A stretch of 64,000 nt of DNA from Jiangella anatolica. GTDB taxonomy: Bacteria > Actinomycetota > Actinomycetes > Jiangellales > Jiangellaceae. Below are positions 15,279 through 64,000 of this stretch, one piece after another (the first letter of the stretch is position 1; each line of letters opens with the position of its first letter). Position numbers and translations under genes: made by a program. The DNA lies in contig NZ_POTW01000004.1 in NCBI RefSeq assembly GCF_003236295.1, positions 1-64,000 of the forward strand, in the 5' to 3' direction. Below the pieces are notes generated by a model. That model had not been told where the DNA came from. It was given only the letters and a program-made list of their open reading frames with translations, and made no database searches.

Positions 15279-15953
15279 TCATCGCTGCGCCTGTCCGTCG
15301 ACGAGGCCGGTGATCGCCGGCCGTCCGTTGCTTGGTGCGTGGGATGGTTCCAGCTCGTTCACCGTGCCGGCCTGGGACAACCACCGGCCCACGGTGGACG
15401 GATGCACACCCAGCCGACCGGCGATGGACTTGTTCGACCATCCCTGCCGATGCAGGCGTGTCGCAGCGTCTCGGCCAGCGTGTGCCGCAGGTACGGGGGC
15501 GGCTCCGAGGTTCGGACGGTGTGTGCCGTCCGGGACCGGGCGGGCTAGCACCACGGTCAGGTGGGTGACCGCTACGAGCACCAGGGGTGGCACCGCGGCG
15601 ACGGGTGCAGCCAGCGCGACCGGGACGTCGATGTCCGTCAGCCCGGCGTGCAGCGCGTTGGCGATCACCGACACCGCGGCGCCCCCGAGCAACAGCATCC
15701 ACGGATACCAGGCGGGCTGGCCACGGCGGGACATCGCGACCACAGCCACGGTCGTCACCACGATGATCCCGTCCACGATCAGCGGCCAGGCCCACGCCTG
15801 GCCCGCATCGATGCCAGAGCGCTGCGCCAGGTCGGTGAGCGCCGTGAACGAGAGCCAGAACGCTCCTGCCCCGATCACGACCGTCCCGGTGACGGCGGTG
15901 CGCAACGCCACCCGCGCGCCACCGTCGAGCCCGCCTTGCCGCGACCCGCTCAC
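15279..15953 (-). CDS. DUF2637 membrane protein with C-terminal helix-turn-helix
   Basis: A 224-residue protein. Residues 8-110 hold four hydrophobic helices with the DUF2637 pattern (SGIDAGQAWAWPLIVDGIIV, YPWMLLLGGAAVSVIANALHA). The C-terminal part carries a homeodomain-like helix-turn-helix (ATRLHRQGWSNKSIAGRLGV then STVGRWLSQAG). DUF2637 proteins are typical of mobile-element replication and regulation clusters in actinomycetes. GTG 15953 overlaps the stop of the ArdC-like gene (GTGA). Confidence 0.8.
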   Translation of the reverse strand: MSGSRQGGLDGGARVALRTAVTGTVVIGAGAFWLSFTALTDLAQRSGIDAGQAWAWPLIVDGIIVVTTVAVVAMSRRGQPAWYPWMLLLGGAAVSVIANALHAGLTDIDVPVALAAPVAAVPPLVLVAVTHLTVVLARPVPDGTHRPNLGAAPVPAAHAGRDAATRLHRQGWSNKSIAGRLGVHPSTVGRWLSQAGTVNELEPSHAPSNGRPAITGLVDGQAQR

Positions 15954-17059
15954 AGGACCGGACCCGTCGCCGGGATCCGCTGCTGAGCATCGTGTCGCTC
16001 CGGGAGGGCAGCTGGCGCTGAGACGGTCACGCCAGCCGTTGGCTCTAGGGCAAGGCCAGGCGGGTCGCCGTTGCCCACCTGCTCGGTCGGCAGAGCGTCG
16101 AGGATCGCCACCGCTGTGCGGCGGACTCGCTCGCCCGTCGCCTTGACGACGTCGACGGCCGGTGTGTCCGGAACTCGTGTCGCCCAGGTCGCTACGTACG
16201 GCACGGTGTAGTCGCTGGTGTCCAGGCCGTGTGCGGCGCCGACCATCAGCGCCACCGACTCTGCCTCCACCTCTTTGATACCCCGGTGCTGCGCGACGTC
16301 GGGGTCGTCGCGGCTGTGCATCATGACGTGTCCCAGCTCGTGAGCCAGCGTCTTCACGCGTGCGGCGGCGTCCATGTCCTCGCGCACCGACACGGTGCGG
16401 GTCAGGTGATCGGTCAGGCCGTTGGCGCCGTCGAGTTGACCGACGCTCGACAGCTGCACCGTGAATCCACGCTCCTCGACGAGCCCGGTCAAGCCCTCCC
16501 ACAACCCGTGGGGAGCCGCACCGTCGAGCAGCCGCGGCGCAGGCCGAGAAGGAAGCTCGGCCCCCGACGTCAATGACACGTCCCACACGTAGGCCGGCTT
16601 CATCCGCGCCGCTCTGCGTCGCACCACCTCACCGGGCCGCTGCTTTTCTCCGGGGGCCAGGCGCCGCCAGGAGGCCGCATCGTCCGGAGTGCTGCTCGCC
16701 ATACGCACCGTGATCGGGGCGTAGATCCTGTAACCGGGTTCGCCTGAGCGCACTGCCCGACCCAGAGTCCTCCACTGCTTGAACCCTGCGACGTAGCTGG
16801 GGACCGGTTCCGGTACCCGGCCCTGCTCGAACGCGGCGAGATGCTGCGCCCAGATCAGGAGCGTGTTGTTGAACGACCTGCTTCGAAACCGCGCCGCAAA
16901 GGCCATCGCGCGTCGCCAGTCAGCACTGGACACCAACGCCTCGACGGCGCCGGTCAACTGCTCCTGCATCTGTTCCAGCTTCTCGGCCCGATCCTCATCT
17001 CTCCGACTCACCTGTCCTGCCCTCCAGTCCACCCGCACCATCGGCACGTCCACGCGCAC
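15950..17059 (-). CDS. ardC: ArdC-like antirestriction protein with Zn metallopeptidase motif
   Basis: A 369-residue protein (ATG 17059; alternatives lie within the first 20 codons). The N-terminal 120 residues resemble the ArdC single-strand-DNA-binding domain (FRSRSFNNTLLIWAQ, GFKQWRTLGRAVRSGEPGYRI). Around residue 230 is an HELGH zinc-protease motif, followed by EVEAESVALMVG. ArdC proteins enter recipient cells with the transferred strand and protect it from restriction. It is the first gene of a leftward operon starting next to the putative oriT. Confidence 0.85.
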   Translation of the reverse strand: MRVDVPMVRVDWRAGQVSRRDEDRAEKLEQMQEQLTGAVEALVSSADWRRAMAFAARFRSRSFNNTLLIWAQHLAAFEQGRVPEPVPSYVAGFKQWRTLGRAVRSGEPGYRIYAPITVRMASSTPDDAASWRRLAPGEKQRPGEVVRRRAARMKPAYVWDVSLTSGAELPSRPAPRLLDGAAPHGLWEGLTGLVEERGFTVQLSSVGQLDGANGLTDHLTRTVSVREDMDAAARVKTLAHELGHVMMHSRDDPDVAQHRGIKEVEAESVALMVGAAHGLDTSDYTVPYVATWATRVPDTPAVDVVKATGERVRRTAVAILDALPTEQVGNGDPPGLALEPTAGVTVSAPAALPERHDAQQRIPATGPVL

Positions 17060-17632
17060 GGGTACGCGATAGGTGCGCCGCCGGCATCAGAGCAGGCTCC
17101 GCCCTGGAAGTGTCCGAAGTGTTTTCGTGGGCGTCCATCCCACGCAATTCGCGAAACGAACGTTCGCCGTGTGACTCTTGAGTCCGGTGCGCGATCGACA
17201 GCGATCGCGCCGCCAGTTCCCGTGACAAGAGAAATGTTCTTGCCGCGCAAGACATACATCATTGCATTGCCCTTCCGTCAACGAACAAAGCCTTTCAGGC
17301 TATGTCGATCACGGCGGATGGTCAAGATCGTCCTATTGCCCGCAACAGTCGAGTGCAGGCGCGGCGCCCAAGCTGCCACTGTTGGGAATCCCACGGGCCC
17401 AACGAGCTGTTGCCAGCCCTCGCCAACGGCGGGGCGACGGCATCCTGGAGGCCGTCGAAGCGTGTTTGACCAGTGCGAACCTTTGGCGGGCGTCCAGCGA
17501 TCCGGCCGGACGCAAGCAGGTTCCTCCTCGCGCGCAACAGATCATCTCAGGGTCGCTGGTCCGGTGACTCTGAATGCGCGCAGCCAAATTTCCGGTGCGG
17601 GATGTCCTCGACATGTCTCTGAGGTGTCCTGC

Positions 17633-17657
17633 TCATCGCCGGCGACCCCGGCGATGA
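17633..17657. repeat. Perfect 10-bp-stem hairpin in the putative oriT
   Basis: TCATCGCCGG (17633-17642) and CCGGCGATGA (17648-17657) are exact reverse complements around a five-base loop. A second hairpin with arms GGATTC and GAATCC (17684-17700) lies 26 bases further on. Confidence 0.8.
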
Positions 17658-17706
17658 TGTCCGAAATGTTCCACCGGCGATTCGGATTCCACCTGAATCC
17701 ACGGGT

Positions 17707-17878
17707 GATTTGCCTTTCGGCAGCTCGATTGTACGGGCGCGGAGGGAGCGCGCAAGGCACGCAAAACTTCCCGCCTGAGCCTTCTTCGATGCCCGCGATC
17801 CATGTCAGGAAGTTTTGACTCTTCGGCCTTGCGCGCTCCCTCCGCGCCCGATCAATCGGCAATTGCCGAAAGGCAAAT
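17707..17878. repeat. Large imperfect inverted repeat (arms about 65-70 bp)
   Basis: The left arm 17707-17771 and right arm 17808-17878 are reverse complements over nearly their whole length. The blocks ATTTGCCTTTCGGCA, GGGCGCGGAGGGAGCGCGCA and AAAACTTCC each recur inverted, with a few mismatches and small gaps. The arms flank a 36-base centre. It can extrude as a cruciform or single-strand hairpin and sits 66 bases before the ParB-like start. Confidence 0.85.
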
Positions 17879-17944
17879 GGGGATCTGAACAGGACTCACA
17901 CCCGGTGAGGCCCGGACCCCTGGAATCCCGAGAGGGGACAGCCG

Positions 17945-19624
17945 ATGACCACCCAGACGATGCCCGCCGAGGGCGCCGCGAGTCCGGGGACGATCCACAC
18001 CGTGATCGGGCAGGTCGTGCACCTCGACCCGCATGACCTGGTGATCGAAGACAACATCCGGACCACCGTCAAGATCCCGCGCTCGTTCATCGCCTCCGTC
18101 CGCGAGCACGGGGTGCTCGTTCCGCTGATCGCGCACCCCGGGCTTGACGGCAGGATCGAGGTGCGCGACGGCCAGGTCCGCACCCTCACCGCCCGCGAGG
18201 TCGGCTGCTCTACAGTCCCGGTTTGGGTGATCGACCGGGACGACGAACGACGCCTGCGGATCATCGAGCAGTACATCGCCGGGGTGCACCGCATGGGCCT
18301 CTCCGAGGCCGACAAGACCAAGGCGTGGCGTCAGCTCTCCCTGGACGGGATGAGCGTCACCGCGATCTCCCGCCAGCTCGGAGCCAAGCGGGAAGACATC
18401 AAGACCGGCATCGCCGTCGCCGAGCACGACCTCGCCGCTGCGGCCATCGCCGAATACGACCTGACCCTCGACCAGGCTGCTGTCCTCATCGAGCTGGACG
18501 ACGACCCTGACGCTGTCGCGAAGCTGCGCAAGGTCGCGAAGGCCACCCCGGCCCGGTTCGACCACGAAGCCCAGATGGCCCGCGACGCCAAGGTCCGTCG
18601 TGAAGAACTGGCCCGTGTGCACGCCGAGTGCGAAGCCAAGGGCTACGCCGTCGTCGACCGGCCCGCCTGGAACGACTCCACCACGGTCAGGCTCGCCGAC
18701 CTGCAGACCGAGGACGGTGAACGGCTCACTGAGCAGAACTACGCCGGGAAGCCTGGTCACGCCGTCGTCATCGATGCCCGCTACGGCCGCGTTGAGGTGG
18801 ACCACTTCGTGGTCGACTGGCGCAAGCACGGCCTGCGCAAGATCGGCTCGACCGGCACGGTTGTCGGCGGAAAGCTCACCGACGCCGAGAAGGCCGAACG
18901 CCGCCGCGTCGTCGCCAACAACCAAGCGTGGGACTCCTCGGAGACGGTGCGCCGTGAGTGGCTGACCAAGCTGCTGGCCCGCAAGCGGCTTCCCAGCGAC
19001 GCCGCAGCCGTCGCCGCCACGATCCTCGCCACCCAGACGGGGCGAGTCGCACGGGCAGCCAACGGCGGCCACCAGATGGCAACAACGTTGCTCGGGCAGG
19101 AGAACCGTCTGGGCGCGCACCCGCTCGGCAAGCTGCTCAGCAGGACCCCGTCCAAGGCAGGGCACGTGGTCCTGGCTATCGCGCTCAGCGCGATGGAAGA
19201 CGCCATGAGTCGCTACACCTGGCGCAACCCCGGCCCGGACGACCGGCACTACCTCAACCAGCTCGCCGCCTGGGGCTACACCCTCTCCGACGTCGAGCAG
19301 ATCGTCACCGCCGACCCCGAGCAGGCGACCCAGGGCGCCCCTGCCGAAGCAGACGACGACCAGGAGCCGCAGTCCGAGGACCCGGGGTCCAACGTCGACA
19401 CCGACGAAGGCGAGGGCACCGAGAGCGAGGACGACGCCTCCGAGGATGGTGCGCCCGCCGACGCCGAGCAAGCGCGCCGGGCTCCCGACGACGGCGAGGC
19501 GGACGACGACGGCGAGGCGGACGACGACGGCGAGGCGGACGACGACGGCGAGGCGGACGACGACGGCGAGGCGGACGACGACGGCGAGGCGGACGACGAC
19601 GGCGAGGCGGACGAGGACGCCTGA
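17945..19624 (+). CDS. ParB-like protein with acidic repeat tail
   Basis: A 559-residue protein. Residues 20-120 are a ParB-type N-domain (VVHLDPHDLVIEDNIR, VREHGVLVPLIAHPG, VRDGQVRTLTAREVG). A helix-turn-helix follows at about residues 120-160 (MGLSEADKTKAWRQL, MSVTAISRQLGA), then a long middle domain ending near 450. The C-terminus is highly acidic, with a tandem 6-residue repeat PDDGEA + 6 x DDDGEA. ATG 17945 follows GAGAGGGGACAGCCG. It is the first gene of the rightward operon beside the big inverted repeat, which is a plausible binding site. Confidence 0.8.
   Translation: MTTQTMPAEGAASPGTIHTVIGQVVHLDPHDLVIEDNIRTTVKIPRSFIASVREHGVLVPLIAHPGLDGRIEVRDGQVRTLTAREVGCSTVPVWVIDRDDERRLRIIEQYIAGVHRMGLSEADKTKAWRQLSLDGMSVTAISRQLGAKREDIKTGIAVAEHDLAAAAIAEYDLTLDQAAVLIELDDDPDAVAKLRKVAKATPARFDHEAQMARDAKVRREELARVHAECEAKGYAVVDRPAWNDSTTVRLADLQTEDGERLTEQNYAGKPGHAVVIDARYGRVEVDHFVVDWRKHGLRKIGSTGTVVGGKLTDAEKAERRRVVANNQAWDSSETVRREWLTKLLARKRLPSDAAAVAATILATQTGRVARAANGGHQMATTLLGQENRLGAHPLGKLLSRTPSKAGHVVLAIALSAMEDAMSRYTWRNPGPDDRHYLNQLAAWGYTLSDVEQIVTADPEQATQGAPAEADDDQEPQSEDPGSNVDTDEGEGTESEDDASEDGAPADAEQARRAPDDGEADDDGEADDDGEADDDGEADDDGEADDDGEADDDGEADEDA
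19484..19609 (+). repeat. Coding tandem repeat, 18-bp unit, seven copies
   Basis: One variant unit (19484-19501, CCC first codon) is followed by six identical 18-bp units GACGACGACGGCGAGGCG from 19502 to 19609. They encode DDDGEA repeats at the C-terminus of the ParB-like protein. Identity at the DNA level implies recent slippage or recombination expansion. Confidence 0.95.
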
Positions 19625-19716: not shown

Positions 19717-20619
19717 ATGAACCCCCCGATCCATGACGCCGACCACATCCTGCGCACCGTGGTAGACGGCGACCGTGAACGTCTCGCCCGGATCGCCCTG
19801 GCCATGATCCCCGCGAACGCTGGCCAGGCCATTCCCAGCCCCGAGATCGGCGCGGCCGAGCCCCGGCTGCGCGAGCTGCTTTTCACCGAGCCGCACCGCC
19901 TGGACGCCGGACACTTCCACGCCGTCCTCACCGCCACCGCTGATCACGACTTGGACGTGATCATCCCTGGTGACGAGCTGTGGCCGACCGGCCTGTCCCA
20001 GCTCCACGACGCCCAGCCCGTCGCTCTGTGGGCACGAGGCAACACCGACCTGCTCACCCGGGCGATCGCCACCCGGATCGTCCTGACCGGCTCCCGAGCG
20101 GCCAGCCACTACGGGGAACGTGTCGCCAGCGACATCGCCCACGACCTCGCCAAGAGCGGTTACGTGGTCACCACCGGCGGCCAGTTCGGCATCGATGCCG
20201 CCGCGCTCCGCGCAGCGTCCGGCGTTGACGCACCGAGTATTGCGGTCCTGCCCTCAGGGTTGGACCAGCCCCATCCCGCCGCCCACGGCCCACTGTTCGA
20301 CCGGGTCGCTGGCTCCGGCGGGTTGCTGCTCACCGAGGCTCCACCCGACGCGCGTGCGACGCGAGCGGCCCACGCGCGACGGGGCCGCATCATGGCCGCG
20401 CTGGCGGGCACCACCGTCATCGTCGAAGCTGCTCTACGCTCAGGCGTGCTTCCGATCGCGCAGCAGGCTATTGCCCTGTGGCGGATCGTCGGCGCTGTCC
20501 CGGGACCGGTCACCAGCGCAACCAGCGCCGGATGCCACCGCCTCATCCGCGACGGCGACACCCACCTGATCACCAGCGCCGACGACATCATCGACATCAT
20601 CGACGACCCAAAGTCCTGA
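19717..20619 (+). CDS. DprA/Smf-like DNA-processing protein
   Basis: A 300-residue protein from ATG 19717 (site GGAGAAG). After an N-terminal helical region comes a Rossmann-like DprA core: DELWPTGLSQLHDAQPVALWARG, IVLTGSRAASHYGERVASDIA, GYVVTTGGQFGIDAAALRAA, AVLPSGLDQPHPAAHGPLF and GTTVIVEAALRSG. Chromosomal DprA loads RecA onto incoming single strands. DprA-like proteins on mobile elements may do so for the transferred strand, which fits its place between a ParB-like gene and the relaxase. Confidence 0.85.
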   Translation: MNPPIHDADHILRTVVDGDRERLARIALAMIPANAGQAIPSPEIGAAEPRLRELLFTEPHRLDAGHFHAVLTATADHDLDVIIPGDELWPTGLSQLHDAQPVALWARGNTDLLTRAIATRIVLTGSRAASHYGERVASDIAHDLAKSGYVVTTGGQFGIDAAALRAASGVDAPSIAVLPSGLDQPHPAAHGPLFDRVAGSGGLLLTEAPPDARATRAAHARRGRIMAALAGTTVIVEAALRSGVLPIAQQAIALWRIVGAVPGPVTSATSAGCHRLIRDGDTHLITSADDIIDIIDDPKS

Positions 20620-22185: not shown

Positions 22186-25100
22186 GTGACGGTGTCGATG
22201 CGGGTGATGTCCGCCGGCGATGGCTACAAGTACCTGGCGAAGACGATTGCGGCCGCGGACGGCGACAGATCGCTGTCGACACCGCTGACGCGCTACTACG
22301 CGGAGAAGGGCACGCCACCGGGGTGGTGGCTGGGCAGCGGACTGGTGTCGTTGGGTGGACCGCTGACGGTGGGTGATCGGGTCAGCGAGCCACAGCTGCA
22401 GTTGCTGATCGGCATGGGGCGACACCCGCTGACGGGCCAGCCGCTGGGCCGCGCGCACCCAGCGTTCCGCAGCATCGCCGATCGCATCCAGGAGCGGGTC
22501 GCAGACCTCGATACCGACCTCGGTCCGGCAGCGCGTGCTCACGCGGTCGAAGCGATCGAGGCGGAGGAGACCGAACGAGGCACCCGGCGGGTGGTAGCCG
22601 GATTCGACTTCACCTTCTCGATCCCGAAGTCAGCCAGCGTCGTGTGGGCGGTTGCCGACGCCGGCACGCAGACGCTGATCGCGCAGGCCCATCATGCGGC
22701 GATTGCGGACGTGGTCGCGTTCATGGAGCGTGAGGTTGCAGCCACACGCGTGGGTGCGACAGCCGGCGACGGTGCGGTTGCGCAGGTCGACGTCACCGGG
22801 GCGATCGCGACGGCCTTCGACCACTACGACTCCCGGGCCGGCGACCCGCACCTGCACACCCACGTGGTCATCTCGAACAAGGTGCAAGCAGTCCTCGACG
22901 AGAAGTGGCGTGCGCTGGATGGCCGGCCGATGCACGCAGCAACCGTCGCGCTCTCCGAGCTGCACGAGGCGCTGTTCGCCGACCACCTGACGCGCACGCT
23001 CGGCGTCGAGTGGGAGCAGCGGGAACGGGGCCGGGACCGCAACCCAGCATGGGCGATCACCACCGTGCCGCCCGAGCTGGTGGCCGAGTTCTCATCCCGC
23101 TCCCGCAACATCGACGCCGAGACCGACCGGCTCATCGACTCCTACGTCGCCGCGCATGGCCGACGACCGTCGCGAACGACGATCCTGCGGTTGCGTGCAC
23201 AGGCAACGCTTGCGACACGGCCGAAGAAGGAAGTGCGATCGCTCGCGGAGCTCACGAGCGGGTGGCGTTCTCGCGCGAGTCGGGTCTTGCGGGGCGACGC
23301 GACCGGGTGGGCGCAGACCGTCACTCTCGTCGGTGCCGCGCCGCCGCTGTTGCGCGCCGACGACATCCCGCTCGAGGTGATGACCGAGCGCGGCCTGAGC
23401 GTGATGGAGACGGTGGGGGAGAAGCGGTCGACGTGGCGGAGGTGGAACCTCTACGCCGAGGCGGCCCGGCAAACGATGGGGTGGCGGTTCGCGACCACCG
23501 CGGATCGAGAGGCGGTCATCGGCCTCGTCGTCGACGCCGCCGAACGGGAATCGCTGCGGCTGACCCCGCCCGAGCTGGCGCCCAGCCCGGCCGCCTTCCA
23601 GCGCCCGGACGGCACCACAGTCTTCCGGCCGAAGCACTCCACGGTCTTCTCCTCGCACCAGCTGCTCGCCGCCGAGGACCGACTACTCGACCGAAGTCGC
23701 GATACCACCGGGCCGGCCCTCGCCTTGGGCACCATCGAAGCGGTGACTCGGCGGCGCGGCCGCAACCGGCAGCGGCTGGATGCGCACCAGGCCGCAGCCC
23801 TCACCGCAATCGCGATGTCGGGCCGCGTCATCGACGTCCTCGTCGGACCGGCCGGCACCGGCAAGACCACCGCCATGCACGCGCTGCGCCGCGCCTGGGA
23901 ACGCGAGCACGGCCCCGGCTCCGTGGTGGGGCTTGCGCCGTCGGCAGCCGCCGCGGACGTCCTGGCCGGCGAGCTGGGCATCCAGACGGAGAACACAGCG
24001 AAGTGGTGGCACGACCACCAGGCACGCCGCACCACCTTCACCGCGGGCCAGCTTGTCATCGTGGACGAAGCCTCGCTGGCCGGCACACTGTCGCTGGACC
24101 GGATCACCGCGGTCGCCGAGCTCGCCGGCGCGAAGGTGCTGCTGGTGGGGGACTACGCACAACTCCAGTCCGTTGACGCCGGCGGTGCGTTCTCACTGCT
24201 CGTCCACGATCGCGACGACACACCGGACCTGCTCGAGGTGCACCGGTTCACCCATCCGTGGGAGCGCACCGCCTCGTTGCAACTGCGCCATGCAAACGCC
24301 GATGTCATCGACACCTACATCGAGCACGGCCGCATACTCGACGGCGACACCGACGAGATGGTCGACGCCGCCTATACCGCCTGGCGTGCCGACGCCCTCG
24401 CCGGGAAAACATCGGTCCTCATCACCGAGGCCCGTGAGAGCGTCACCGAGCTCAACCTGCGCGCTCGCATCGACCTCATCCTCGACGGAACCGTGAACCC
24501 CGACGCCGGCGAGGTCGCGCTGCACGACGGTGCGGCTGCAGCCGTCGGTGACACCATCATCACCCGCCGCAACGAGCGCCGCCTGCGCACCGGCAACAGC
24601 TGGGTCCGCAACGGCGACCGCTGGACCGTCACCGCTGTCCGGCCCGATGGATCCCTCACCGCTCGTCGCGCCGGCCGACGCCGCGGCGGCGCCGTCGTGC
24701 TCCCGGCCGGCTATGTCGCCGAACACGTCGACCTCGGCTACGCCATCACCGCCCACCGGGCCCAAGGCATTACCACCGACACCGCACACGTCCTCGTCCT
24801 GCCCACCACCACGAGAGAGAACCTGTACGTCGCCCTCACCCGCGGTCGCGAACTCAACATGGCCTACGTCGCCACCGACCTGCCAGACACCATCCACACC
24901 GGCCCGCACCCGACCGACAACCCCGAAGCGACTGCCCGCTCGGTCCTCTACGGCGTCCTCCAGCACGTCGGCGCCGAACTATCGGCGCACGAGACCGTCG
25001 CCGCTGAGCACGAACGCTGGGCATCGATCGCACAGCTCGCTGCCGAGTACGAGACGATCGCAGCTGCGGCTCAGCACGATCGCTGGTCTTCCCTGATCCG

Positions 25101-25743
25101 CGCCTGCGGCCTCGGCTCGGATGGGGCCGAGAGCGCGCTCACCTCCGATGCATTCGGCGCGCTCGCGGCAGAGCTACGACGAGCCGAAGCCAACCACCAC
25201 GACATCGATGCGCTCCTGCCTCAGCTCGCCCAGGTCCATGGGTTCGACGATGCTGAAGACGTGGCTGCCGTTCTGCACGAACGCCTGGCCCGCGCCACAG
25301 AGCGCCCCGCTCCTATCCGTTCCCGCACCCGCGCAACCCAGAGCCACATCGTCGGACTCATCTCGGAGGCGACCGGCCCGATGGGGCCAGATATGCGCGC
25401 CGCCCTGACCCGACGTCGCGCTCTGATCGAGGCCCGCGCCGAAGCCGTCCTCGATGCCGCCCTGCACGATCGCCAGGCCTGGGCCGCCGCGCTTGGCTCG
25501 CCACCAGCTGACCGCGCCCACGTCGCCCGCTGGCGACTTCACGCCCGAACCGTCGCTGCCTACCGCGACCGCTACGGCATCACCACCTCGAACCCCCTTG
25601 GGGCGACTCCGCAGAACACTGCTCAGAAGATCGACGCCGCACGCGCCGCAGCCGCCCTCGATGCTGCCCAGAAGCTCAGCAGCCCAGCCCGTCGCACCGA
25701 CGCCGGCACGATCGTGCGCGACCCCGGCCCGGTCCGGCTCTAG
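22186..25743 (+). CDS. MobF-family relaxase-helicase (TraA/TrwC-like)
   Basis: A protein of 1185 residues that nicks oriT and unwinds the transferred strand. GTG 22186 gives the characteristic start VTVSMRVMSAGDGYKYL. The catalytic Tyr pair follows in TRYYAEKG, and the His triad is HLHTH at about residue 222. The helicase domain (SF1, RecD/TraI-like) has Walker A GPAGTGKTT near residue 550, DEAS, GDYAQLQSVDAGG, then GYAITAHRAQG and YVALTRGRE. The C-terminal 250 residues are helical and Arg/Ala-rich. The frame extends upstream to 21973, but that part overlaps the divergent gene. Confidence 0.93.
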   Translation: MTVSMRVMSAGDGYKYLAKTIAAADGDRSLSTPLTRYYAEKGTPPGWWLGSGLVSLGGPLTVGDRVSEPQLQLLIGMGRHPLTGQPLGRAHPAFRSIADRIQERVADLDTDLGPAARAHAVEAIEAEETERGTRRVVAGFDFTFSIPKSASVVWAVADAGTQTLIAQAHHAAIADVVAFMEREVAATRVGATAGDGAVAQVDVTGAIATAFDHYDSRAGDPHLHTHVVISNKVQAVLDEKWRALDGRPMHAATVALSELHEALFADHLTRTLGVEWEQRERGRDRNPAWAITTVPPELVAEFSSRSRNIDAETDRLIDSYVAAHGRRPSRTTILRLRAQATLATRPKKEVRSLAELTSGWRSRASRVLRGDATGWAQTVTLVGAAPPLLRADDIPLEVMTERGLSVMETVGEKRSTWRRWNLYAEAARQTMGWRFATTADREAVIGLVVDAAERESLRLTPPELAPSPAAFQRPDGTTVFRPKHSTVFSSHQLLAAEDRLLDRSRDTTGPALALGTIEAVTRRRGRNRQRLDAHQAAALTAIAMSGRVIDVLVGPAGTGKTTAMHALRRAWEREHGPGSVVGLAPSAAAADVLAGELGIQTENTAKWWHDHQARRTTFTAGQLVIVDEASLAGTLSLDRITAVAELAGAKVLLVGDYAQLQSVDAGGAFSLLVHDRDDTPDLLEVHRFTHPWERTASLQLRHANADVIDTYIEHGRILDGDTDEMVDAAYTAWRADALAGKTSVLITEARESVTELNLRARIDLILDGTVNPDAGEVALHDGAAAAVGDTIITRRNERRLRTGNSWVRNGDRWTVTAVRPDGSLTARRAGRRRGGAVVLPAGYVAEHVDLGYAITAHRAQGITTDTAHVLVLPTTTRENLYVALTRGRELNMAYVATDLPDTIHTGPHPTDNPEATARSVLYGVLQHVGAELSAHETVAAEHERWASIAQLAAEYETIAAAAQHDRWSSLIRACGLGSDGAESALTSDAFGALAAELRRAEANHHDIDALLPQLAQVHGFDDAEDVAAVLHERLARATERPAPIRSRTRATQSHIVGLISEATGPMGPDMRAALTRRRALIEARAEAVLDAALHDRQAWAAALGSPPADRAHVARWRLHARTVAAYRDRYGITTSNPLGATPQNTAQKIDAARAAAALDAAQKLSSPARRTDAGTIVRDPGPVRL

Positions 25744-50682: not shown

Positions 50683-51224
50683 CCCAGCACGTGGACCTCG
50701 TCATGGTCAGAACGGTCCCATCGGATCGCTTCGCTTGCGTGAGCGGTGGGGGACTCCGCGGTCCTGGCCCTGGGCGGGCGAAGAGGTGTGTGGGCAGCCC
50801 GATACGGCCGCCAGGATGCCGTTGCAAGCCCGCTGGCCAGCCCGGCCAAGCCCGCCTGAGCTAGAGCTGGTACTGCTCGACGATCACGAGCTGACCGCTC
50901 CCGGCGGTTGCCCATGTTTTGGGTGCCCCCGGCAGGAGATGACTCTGCACCAGCGGAACCTCCTGTCTGCAGTGTGACCTGCGGCGTTATCGATTTACGG
51001 GGTTCGTTCGAGCATCGTGGCTGGCGCTCTGGCTCGATGCGTGCCGAGTCGCTCTCCGGGACTTCCTGAGTCCGCGGTTGCGGCTGGTCACACGGCGCTG
51101 TGGTGGGGATCACCGGCTAGAGGTTCGCCTCGACCGGTTACTCTGGTGGTAGGCGATGAGGCCCGCCTGAACTGCCATGGTGGCTGATGGCTTCTACCCG
51201 TTTGAACGAACGGTTGGAGGCGCC
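50683..51224. other. Intergenic region, no gene seen
   Basis: About 540 bases between a leftward small gene and the MutS-like operon. An open frame on the minus strand (50679-51113) is Arg/Ser-rich and judged non-coding. The promoter of the MutS-like operon should lie here, but no clear elements were identified. Confidence 0.35.
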
Positions 51225-58651: not shown

Positions 58652-59401
58652 ATGAACCGCACCACCGCCGCCGGCGGATCGGAGCCGGCGTTGACGCGCC
58701 GCACCGTCCCGCCCGCCGCGTGGACGCGGCTGGCTGCAGCGCTGGCGCTGGTGGCGTCGACGGTGATCGCGGGGTGGCTGGTGCAGGCCGATCGTTTTAC
58801 CGACGCCAACGTCGGGGCCAGTTCACGTGTCGCCGACTATCGCACGCCGGTCCTGACGAGCGTGGCGCGGGCGGCGACGAACCTCGCCGAGCCGGTCGGG
58901 GTGGTGGCCGCTGCGCTGATCGTCGTGCTGTTCGTCGTGCCGCGGCGCCGGCGGCTGGATGGGTGGGCGGCGCTGGCGTTGCTGGTGGGTTCGGCGGCGG
59001 CCACGATGGTGATCAAGTACGCCGTGGCGGAACCGCGTCCGCCGGCGCGGTTGTGGGCGATGGCGCCGGACAGCCGGTTCAGCTTCCCCAGCGGGCACAC
59101 CACGATCGCCGCGGCCGTCGCGGTCACGGCGATCTTCCTCGCCAACCGGTCGGCGTCGCGGTGGACTGTGGCGGGTGCCGTCGTCGCCGCGGTGTTCGCG
59201 CTGCTGGTGGCGGGGTCGCGGGTCTATCTGGGCGTGCACTACCTGACCGATGTCCTGGCGAGCATGGCCGCGGTCGCCGCGAGCGCGGTGGCGGTGTCCG
59301 GCGCCTGGGCGTTGCTGCACGCTCGCGCCGAGCGGGAAGGGGGTGGGCGCGGTGCCGGTGGAGATTCAGACCGTGACGCAGGCGTACACGTTCGCCCTTG
59401 A
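58652..59401 (+). CDS. PAP2-family membrane phosphatase, copy 2
   Basis: A 249-residue protein with complete PAP2 motifs: KYAVAEPRP (K-x6-RP), FSFPSGHTTIA and GSRVYLGVHYLTDVL. About six helices. ATG 58652, nine bases after the CrcB-like stop. The last about 20 residues (GGGRGAGGDSDRDAGVHVRP) look like sequence replaced at the boundary of the adjacent TnpB element, so the native C-terminus may be lost. Confidence 0.85.
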   Translation: MNRTTAAGGSEPALTRRTVPPAAWTRLAAALALVASTVIAGWLVQADRFTDANVGASSRVADYRTPVLTSVARAATNLAEPVGVVAAALIVVLFVVPRRRRLDGWAALALLVGSAAATMVIKYAVAEPRPPARLWAMAPDSRFSFPSGHTTIAAAVAVTAIFLANRSASRWTVAGAVVAAVFALLVAGSRVYLGVHYLTDVLASMAAVAASAVAVSGAWALLHARAEREGGGRGAGGDSDRDAGVHVRP

Positions 59402-60860
59402 CCCCACGCCGCAGCAGCGGCGGGCGTTCGTCTCCCATGCCGGTGCCGCCCGGTATGCCTACAACTGGGGCCTGGCCCGCACCGCCGGCGCGCTGGACGC
59501 GCGCGCGGCGGAGGTCGCCGCGGGCGGCGAGCCGGTCACGTCGCTGCCGTCGCATTTCGAGTTGTGCAAGGCGTGGACGGTGTTCAAGAACGACCCGGCC
59601 AACGAGCTGGGCTGGGTGGGGCAGAACTTCGCCGGCACCTACCAGGCCGCGCTGCGTGACGCCGCCGGCGCGTGGCGGAACTTCTTCGCATCGCGCAACG
59701 GGCAGCACAAGGGCCGGCGGGTGGGTCGGCCGCGGTTCAGGTCGAAGCGGCGGACCCGGCTGGCGTTCCAGGTGCACGGCGATGGGTTCAGGGTCCGCGA
59801 CGCCCACCACGTCCAGCTGCCGAAGATCGGTGCGGTCAAGACGCACGAGTCGACCCGCAAGGTGCTGCGCCGGCTCACGGCCGGGACGGCGCGGCTGGTC
59901 CGCGGCACCGTCACCCGTGACGCCGGCGGACGGTGGCACGTCGCGCTCACCGTGCAGGTCCAGCGTCCTGTCCGTACTACGCCGTCCGCGCGACAGCTCG
60001 CTGGCGGCACCGTCGGCGTCGACCTCGGCGTGCGCGACCTCATGACTCTCTCCGACGGGACGGTCGTGCCGAACCCGCGGCCGCTGGGCGCGGCCGCTCG
60101 GAAGCTGGCCCGGGCCGGCCGGGCGCACGCGCGGACCCAGCCGGGATCGCGGCGACGAGCGAAGGCCAAGGCCAGGCTCGGCAAGATGCACGCCAGGATC
60201 GGCAACCTGCGGCTGGACGCCTCGCACCAGGCCACCACCCGGCTGGTCCACGGCTACCAGCGGATCGTGGTCGAGGGCTGGAACGCCCAGCAACTCGCCC
60301 GCTCGCGGCGGGATGTTCCGCGCCGGGTGCGCCGCGACCGCAACCGGAGGCTGGCCGACGCCGCCCTCGGCCGGCTGCGAACGCAGCTGCGGACCAAGGC
60401 GGCCTGGTACGGATCGGCCGTGCAGATCGTCGATGCCCACGCCCCGACCGGGAGGACCTGCTCGGTGTGCGGTGCGGTGAGAACCACACCGATACCGCCA
60501 CGTCAGGAGCTGTTCACCTGCCCGGCCGGGCATCAGCTGGACCGGCGCGTCAACACCGCGCGCCTGCTCGTCGTCGCCTCGAGTGCCGAGGAGACGGTAA
60601 ACGCCCGTGGACCAGGCGTCAGCCCCGAGGCCGCCGGGCAGCCCGGAACGAAGCGGGAAGCCCGCACTCGACCCGACCCGTCCCCAGGGGTCGAGGTAGG
60701 ACGGGCAGCCCGGACCCGTAAGGGCCTGGCACCCCCACCCGGGGATGACGGGATGTCGCCGAAACCCACCCCGACATCGAGCGCCGAACCCGACGCGGCG
60801 CTGTGAACCCCCTCACACCGGGAAGCCCGGCGACCAGGCCGGGCGTTGCGATTGACGATC
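59345..60860 (+). mobile_element. IS605-family TnpB-only element (approximate limits)
   Basis: The left end is unclear, near the 3' end of the PAP2 gene. The right end is near a hairpin with arms GCCCGG and CCGGGC (60825-60844), after which the fluoride riboswitch begins. Such elements encode a guide RNA (reRNA) from the 3' end of tnpB and the right end. It separates the two fluoride riboswitch operons. Confidence 0.55.
59352..60806 (+). CDS. tnpB: TnpB-family RNA-guided nuclease (IS605/IS1341-type)
   Basis: A 484-residue protein. It has the OrfB N-terminal helix-turn-helix (ALDPTPQQRRAFVSHAGAARYAYNW) and a RuvC nuclease with Asp in GVDLGVRDL (about residue 224), Glu in IVVEGWN (about 308) and Asp in QLDRRVNTAR (about 397). 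The zinc ribbon is CSVCG...CPAGH, missing one Cys of the usual four. GTG 59352 (others at 59358, 59373) lies inside the end of the PAP2 gene. No TnpA is nearby, so it is a solo-TnpB element. Confidence 0.9.
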   Translation: MPVEIQTVTQAYTFALDPTPQQRRAFVSHAGAARYAYNWGLARTAGALDARAAEVAAGGEPVTSLPSHFELCKAWTVFKNDPANELGWVGQNFAGTYQAALRDAAGAWRNFFASRNGQHKGRRVGRPRFRSKRRTRLAFQVHGDGFRVRDAHHVQLPKIGAVKTHESTRKVLRRLTAGTARLVRGTVTRDAGGRWHVALTVQVQRPVRTTPSARQLAGGTVGVDLGVRDLMTLSDGTVVPNPRPLGAAARKLARAGRAHARTQPGSRRRAKAKARLGKMHARIGNLRLDASHQATTRLVHGYQRIVVEGWNAQQLARSRRDVPRRVRRDRNRRLADAALGRLRTQLRTKAAWYGSAVQIVDAHAPTGRTCSVCGAVRTTPIPPRQELFTCPAGHQLDRRVNTARLLVVASSAEETVNARGPGVSPEAAGQPGTKREARTRPDPSPGVEVGRAARTRKGLAPPPGDDGMSPKPTPTSSAEPDAAL

Positions 60861-63727: not shown

Positions 63728-63827
63728 GGTTCCTCCCGGACACGGTCCGCTGCCGTGCACAGAGTAGGAGCCATCAGCCTCACGAGGAGGCGGTTCGGGC
63801 CGAGTGACCCCGGCGGGATCCATCACC

Positions 63828-64000
63828 GATCTTCAGTACAGCGCTATCGGCCGTCCGCGGTCAAGGGCAACCCACCTGCATGGGAGGCTTGCGAGTGGTC
63901 GGCCATCGGCGGAGACTGAGAGAACAGGCGATGAGGCTCGCCTTCGACCGCGGAGCATTTCCGCTGATGGCCTCTACCGCACCACCGTCGAGCGCTCAGG
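63828..64000. other. Right edge, no gene seen
   Basis: The last 170 bases contain no open frame that I trust on either strand; the sequence is probably a promoter region for the leftward DUF190 gene and the start of another unit beyond the window. Confidence 0.3.

Follow-up and report, generated by a model that had tools for sequence, protein, structure and literature searches.

Plasmids of enterobacteria, such as F of E. coli, are known to express genes from the single strand that enters a recipient; for the Bacillus plasmid pLS20 such expression has been argued against. In the enterobacterial IncI1 plasmid ColIb-P9 a single-stranded promoter lies upstream of ardA/psiB-type leading genes, and the Frpo elements of F are reported also to start the second strand on the transferred single-stranded DNA. 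According to the parts of the cited papers available to us, Frpo1 and Frpo2 drive the leading genes of F (PMC9849209) and the activity of the ColIb-P9 promoter is said to depend on secondary structure (a title cited in PMC8708921). For pLS20, in which repeated structured regions named EGeRS1 stand ahead of establishment genes including ardC, the available text of PMC8708921 argues against single-stranded promoters because the strand that is transferred does not serve as template, and reports no promoter in the fold. The sso of ICEBs1 and of rolling-circle plasmids is a further folded single-stranded element that acts after transfer; it serves second-strand synthesis (PMC4595007, available part). 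Samuel et al. screened leading regions for sequences resembling known Frpo/ssi, and the strings "Actinobacteri" and "Actinomycet" are absent from the main text of their paper as available to us (PMC11541004). In the open-licence PubMed Central literature we found no description of single-stranded promoters in Actinomycetota, which is no proof of their absence.

Here we describe a long hairpin ahead of a parB-like gene in Jiangella anatolica, within a stretch of 64,000 nucleotides of contig NZ_POTW01000004.1 (hereafter the window). We consider it probable that this hairpin acts as a promoter for leading-region genes on single-stranded DNA, in the manner of Frpo but unrelated to it in sequence, and in Actinomycetota. 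The observations behind this proposal, all of them computational, are the hairpin itself, its conservation, a -10 box present on one side only, co-orientation with the relaxase gene and, in relatives, extra copies ahead of other leading-type genes.

The inverted repeat occupies positions 17708-17878 (171 nt) and ends 66 bp 5' of the start codon of a ParB-like protein (17945). Its outer clamp is an exact inverted repeat of 15 nt (17708-17722 and 17864-17878, 100% complementary). Inside the clamp, the left arm of the main stem (17726-17758, 33 nt) is 94% complementary to the right arm (17826-17858), and an inner stem (17762-17771 and 17808-17817) was delimited from sequence reading and the fold. 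The - strand is the template of parB. On it the left arm forms the 3' arm of the hairpin, called arm b below, and would be the non-template strand if polymerase used the fold as a promoter; the - strand of the right arm, arm a, would be its template. Region 17690-17944 folded as RNA gave a z-score of -10.1, equalled by 0 of 200 shuffles, and 17581-17944 folded as DNA gave -10.75 (0 of 100 shuffles). The window hairpin is therefore, like elements of the Frpo type, a stable long stem-loop in the single strand, and the view of the initial annotation that a long inverted repeat beyond chance lies here was borne out. The gene-free region between the ArdC gene (17059) and parB (17945) measures 0.9 kb, as had been claimed; two smaller hairpins that had been listed with the long one (about 17634-17656 and 17684-17698) fall outside the block kept in relatives, which begins near 17700. 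A MITE or other dispersed repeat was ruled out because the repeat is single-copy in its own Jiangella genome, where the second match of the genome search is its own reverse complement. We found no further hairpin with this clamp sequence inside the window, and no DNA similarity between 17100-17944 and plasmid or phage records. Rfam returned no match at the hairpin, which could thus not be placed in a curated cis-regulatory RNA family.

Between the hairpin and the parB start codon lies a leader of 66 nt (17879-17944, + strand) carrying GAGAGGGGAC ahead of the start codon and conserved in two other Jiangella genomes (G001 and G002). The ParB-like protein (17945-19624, +) has a weak ParB_N match and acidic repeats at its C-terminus, where the acidic run encoded by 19430-19624 is made of EADDDG units. 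It is followed by a DprA-like protein (19717-20619, +, start uncertain), probably encoded in the same operon, and by a MobF/TrwC relaxase (22186-25743, +) whose GTG start at 22186 was assigned by conservation. An ArdC-like antirestriction protein (15950-17059, -) is encoded divergently. The neighbourhood further encodes a DUF2637 protein and a second ParB-like protein, as well as, leftward, M23 peptidase and DUF6112 proteins. Elsewhere in the window we observed three fluoride riboswitches (51143-51203, 63758-63836 and 63918-63983), two of them divergent within 230 bp, and an OrfB/IS605 (TnpB-like) gene (59250-60806) with a Transposase-2 RNA match (60650-60733) across its 3' end.

A DNA search of 12 Jiangella genomes recovered hairpin and leader in G002 (81%), G001 (78%) and G008 (70%). 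Relatives were found with an alignment query; a scan of named genomes with a single protein gave none. A long hairpin precedes parB in 7 of 8 Jiangella homologues; the exception, L015, seen also as L149 (genome G006), has a parB relative without the matching N-terminal part and without hairpin, and is probably a decayed element. Hairpins of the same type as that of the window (type A; the letters A to G are our own grouping) also occur in Metallococcus and in one actinomycete MAG, and in an alignment of 7 relatives 8 of the 32 consensus pairs showed compensatory changes. At the same place stand hairpins of other sequence in Microbacteriaceae (type B), other Jiangella (type C), further groups (types D and E), Arthrobacter (type F) and Brachybacterium (type G). 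The clamp sequence thus turns over entirely between ParB relatives while the structure is retained, so that the comparison with related elements called for by the initial annotation found the hairpin kept ahead of parB homologues in several actinomycete families despite sequence change. Exact outer repeats of at least 11 nt were present in 16 of 82 upstream regions as against 99 of 3280 control windows. Among the upstream regions examined, many ParB relatives (Nocardioides, most Curtobacterium and two Rhodococcus plasmids) had no clamp. Folding z-scores alone were strong in few of 75 loci, and we therefore relied on clamps and on a test of the -10 box. These 75 come from 80 parB loci, after five with short or partial upstream sequence (L078, L115, L136, L143 and L144) had been dropped; the 82 upstream regions comprise 74 of them and 8 others.

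On arm b of the window hairpin a -10 box, TACAAT (17728-17733, - strand), is preceded at a distance of 16 nt by a -35-like TTGCGC (17750-17755, -). Arm b reads TTGCCA-N16-TAAAAT in G002 and TTGCCA-N16-TACAAT in G001, and four others have CACAAT. The right arm carries at the corresponding site a broken copy, ATCAAT (17851-17856, +), which lies on the non-template strand for parB in double-stranded DNA; the readings at this site are ATCAAT, CTCAAT, CTGACC, CTTCTC or TTTCTT. As we read the sequences, arm b has an A and the opposite arm a T at position -11 in 7 of 7 cases, so that A stands opposite A in the fold. We then scored -10 boxes in all loci with a recognised clamp. Clamps were set by hand in 49 loci, of which L081, L089 and L092 failed; the counts below refer to the remaining 46, whose rows are related to one another and among which the clamp of L174 is loose. 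Arm b had the better -10 score of the two arms in 43 of 46 loci, and a TAnnnT hexamer just inside the clamp was present on arm b in 36 of 46 and on the other arm in none of 46. Counting distinct sequences, TAnnnT was found in 31 of 40 for arm b (2.9 expected by shuffling) and in 0 of 36 for the other arm (5.4 expected). When each of 16 clamp lineages, chosen by us, was represented by a single row, arm b scored higher in 15 of 16. In 41 loci the best hexamer matches TAnnnT or CAnnnT, and in 40 of these it sits 4-10 nt inward of the clamp. Type D lacks a -10 in 3 of 4 loci (L068, L094 and L120), and type C gives no clear -10 pattern. Type A has a -35 at 16-17 nt; in 3 of 4 Arthrobacter-type loci it is weaker, and in Brachybacterium it is represented by TTGTGC-N16-CACAGT. 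Both boxes are thus formed in the folded strand in the window, and no -35 was found in types B and E.

The two strands of the hairpins also differ in folding energy. With DNA parameters, the - strand was preferred in 41 of 42 hairpins by a mean of 5.3 kcal/mol, in a set made of the loci with a recognised hairpin, with bounds set by hand. Part of this raw count reflects base composition; 36 of 42 hairpins stayed negative when set against dinucleotide shuffles, with a mean z of -1.0. The asymmetry of the window hairpin itself is unexceptional, being reached by 43 of 100 shuffles. As a positive control we folded the Frpo elements of plasmid F, whose template strand was better by 10.9 kcal/mol in Frpo1 and 8.5 kcal/mol in Frpo2, values reached by 0 of 60 and 1 of 60 shuffles, respectively.

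The type B core is repeated within the same elements. We found 35 copies away from parB, 32 of them with a clamp; the 3 clamp-less copies were dropped, and some spurious short clamps picked by the script remain in the set. Of these 32 copies, 22 had TAnnnT on arm b and none had it on the other arm. Among ten downstream proteins taken from eight loci, Pfam found SSB (4), DprA (2), DUF3560 (2) and ArdC (1), one having no family. Three of the SSB genes begin 380-402 nt from the core, and a small gene may lie in between. The plasmid pL3i23 and the plasmid of Microbacterium J1-1 share the order hairpin, parB, ArdC, ParA-like ATPase and glutaredoxin, which in pL3i23 is followed by SSB. pL3i23 has in addition a further hairpin (L164 about 11200, - strand) with the type A clamp TTGCCTTTCGGC, ahead of nrdH on the other strand. 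Leading-type genes therefore stand behind copies in relatives (parB, ArdC, SSB, DprA and DUF3560), those in the window being parB and DprA only.

Using tblastn with MOBF and MOBP queries, we found a relaxase in 35 of 97 stretches, corresponding to 34 distinct loci; a few of the stretches hold the same locus, and the relaxase rows count one locus twice (G005, L069). Relaxase and parB are co-oriented in 35 of 35 rows (34 of 34 distinct loci), with parB upstream in 34 of 35 (33 of 34), the exception being L070, whose relaxase gene precedes parB in the same orientation. In five MOBP loci (L169 at 7427, L170 at 17173, L174 at 11501, L094 at 13913 and L136 at 4400) we identified GAGCAAGCTA, 2-3 nt and an inverted repeat of 6-9 bp; the relaxase of L170 was assigned from the annotation of the record. 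This element lies directly ahead of mobC/nikA-like and relaxase genes in one constant direction in 5 of 5 loci, and may represent an oriT family of MOBP plasmids from actinobacteria. The nick of an oriT is usually found 3' of the repeat. Should it lie 3' of the GAGCAAGCTA repeat, the - strand would be the one transferred and parB would be on the leading side. An RP4-like nick motif ahead of mobC gave scattered matches on both strands and was set aside. We found no oriT in MOBF elements, that of the window included, where no alignment was obtained for the stretch ahead of mobF and the start of the gene alone is conserved. Among relaxases about 60% identical, the first ~20 bases of mobF (22186-22210, GTGACGGTGTCGATGCGGGTG) are nearly invariant. 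This conservation exceeds what the protein requires, and the segment could be part of the oriT.

The hairpin resembles Frpo1 and Frpo2 (PMC9849209 and PMC11541004, as far as the available text goes) in that both are long hairpins ahead of leading-region genes, present in several copies per element, with the template strand folding better and promoter boxes formed in the fold, wherever in Frpo these may lie. The gene arrangement is similar as well, the leading genes pointing toward the relaxosome side; in F, ssb, the DUF905 gene, a ParB-family gene and psiB face traM. The hairpin differs from Frpo in its length (171 nt against about 320), in its actinomycete hosts and in occurring with MOBP as well as MOBF relaxases. 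A search for homology to known Frpo gave an 11-nt chance match (E 0.32) in one of eight hairpins, which is no meaningful similarity; we therefore say that the hairpin works like Frpo and do not claim homology. The ColIb-P9 promoter is likened to it by description, not by sequence. EGeRS1 has in common with the hairpin its repeated structured regions ahead of establishment genes on a Gram-positive plasmid, but the hairpin carries a -10 in the fold and its transferred strand would be the template. The sso is likewise folded on the single strand but is not tied to each leading gene.

The initial annotation had rightly connected the hairpin with conjugation as a DNA element, and proposed that it is an oriT, a ParB site or a replication origin. 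The hairpin is palindromic and has ParB-like and relaxase genes nearby, which would suit an oriT or a ParB centromere. An oriT is expected to be specific to a relaxase family and to lie beside its gene, yet near-identical arms are found on the MOBF plasmid p232 and on the MOBP plasmids pJ340-114 and pASPHE301, parB and other genes stand between hairpin and relaxase gene, and pJ340-114 and pASPHE301 have a separate oriT-like element directly ahead of mobC. The occurrence of such arms under both relaxase families speaks against an oriT. A parS would be a short palindrome whose sequence stays constant along with its ParB, but the clamps differ wholly between ParB relatives (for instance L077, L082, L090 and L112) and several copies occur per element. 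These two roles are extremely unlikely, and nothing was found in favour of a vegetative replication origin. A role as ordinary double-stranded promoter, with TTGCGC-N16-TACAAT driving the divergent ArdC operon leftward, would agree with the divergent left gene of the window, G002, L065 and L069 (ArdC in the window and L065). It leaves the complementary right arm and its broken -10 unexplained, and the left neighbour is co-directional with parB in most Microbacteriaceae loci, pL3i23, J1-1, p232, pJ340-114 and the Brachybacterium plasmid. Leftward drive of ArdC can thus not be the general role, and we consider this explanation highly improbable.

An action in the parB transcript, as attenuator, antiterminator like EGeRS1 of pLS20 or stability element, would account for the strong RNA fold and has a parallel in the structured leaders of pLS20 establishment genes (PMC8708921, available part). 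We regard it as quite unlikely, given that a one-sided -10 has no role in RNA, that the better-folding strand is the complement of the mRNA, in 36 of 42 hairpins beyond what composition explains, and that Rfam has no match. Alternatively, the hairpin could be a single-strand initiation site only, priming the second strand through RNA polymerase or primase, with its placement before parB incidental. Folded -35 and -10 boxes on the template strand would suit priming equally, and functional sso elements are described in the accessible part of PMC4595007 for ICEBs1. The constant site immediately ahead of coding regions that carry a ribosome site, together with the several copies per element, each ahead of a different leading-type gene, speaks against this explanation, which is unlikely. 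A double role as promoter and priming site, by analogy with Frpo, would satisfy both readings. In all, a single-stranded promoter is the simplest account of these sequences.

According to this promoter model, the - strand would enter the recipient as the transferred strand and fold into the hairpin. RNA polymerase would find the -35 and -10 of the stem with arm b as non-template strand (TTGCGC-N16-TACAAT), the box being predicted to be already unpaired at -12/-11. Transcription would start near the hairpin base, possibly near 17863, and run onto the single strand, giving by read-through parB mRNA and probably that of dprA; these genes would be expressed early. As for the requirement of ArdC of R388 in the recipient and not in the donor (available part of PMC7213743), it fits early expression. 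In double-stranded DNA the copy facing parB would have a dead -10 (ATCAAT), and parB expression of this kind would thus end once the second strand is made. A bolder version for type A, which we hold to be doubtful, is a strand-state switch, in which one -35/-10 drives parB rightward when single-stranded and the ArdC operon leftward once double-stranded, the rightward copy being dead, such promoters having arisen independently in Actinomycetota. If this were true, the direction of a promoter would change with the state of the DNA.

If the hairpin is indeed a single-stranded promoter, actinobacterial plasmids and chromosomal elements would have a counterpart of the enterobacterial promoters that is unrelated in sequence and defined by structure, and this solution would have arisen more than once. 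Such promoters could then be sought by rule, without sequence similarity, as hairpins in which a single arm keeps the -10 intact a short way inside the clamp, and the hairpins would point to the first-expressed genes of actinobacterial conjugative elements, namely those for parB-like, ArdC, SSB, DprA and DUF3560 proteins.
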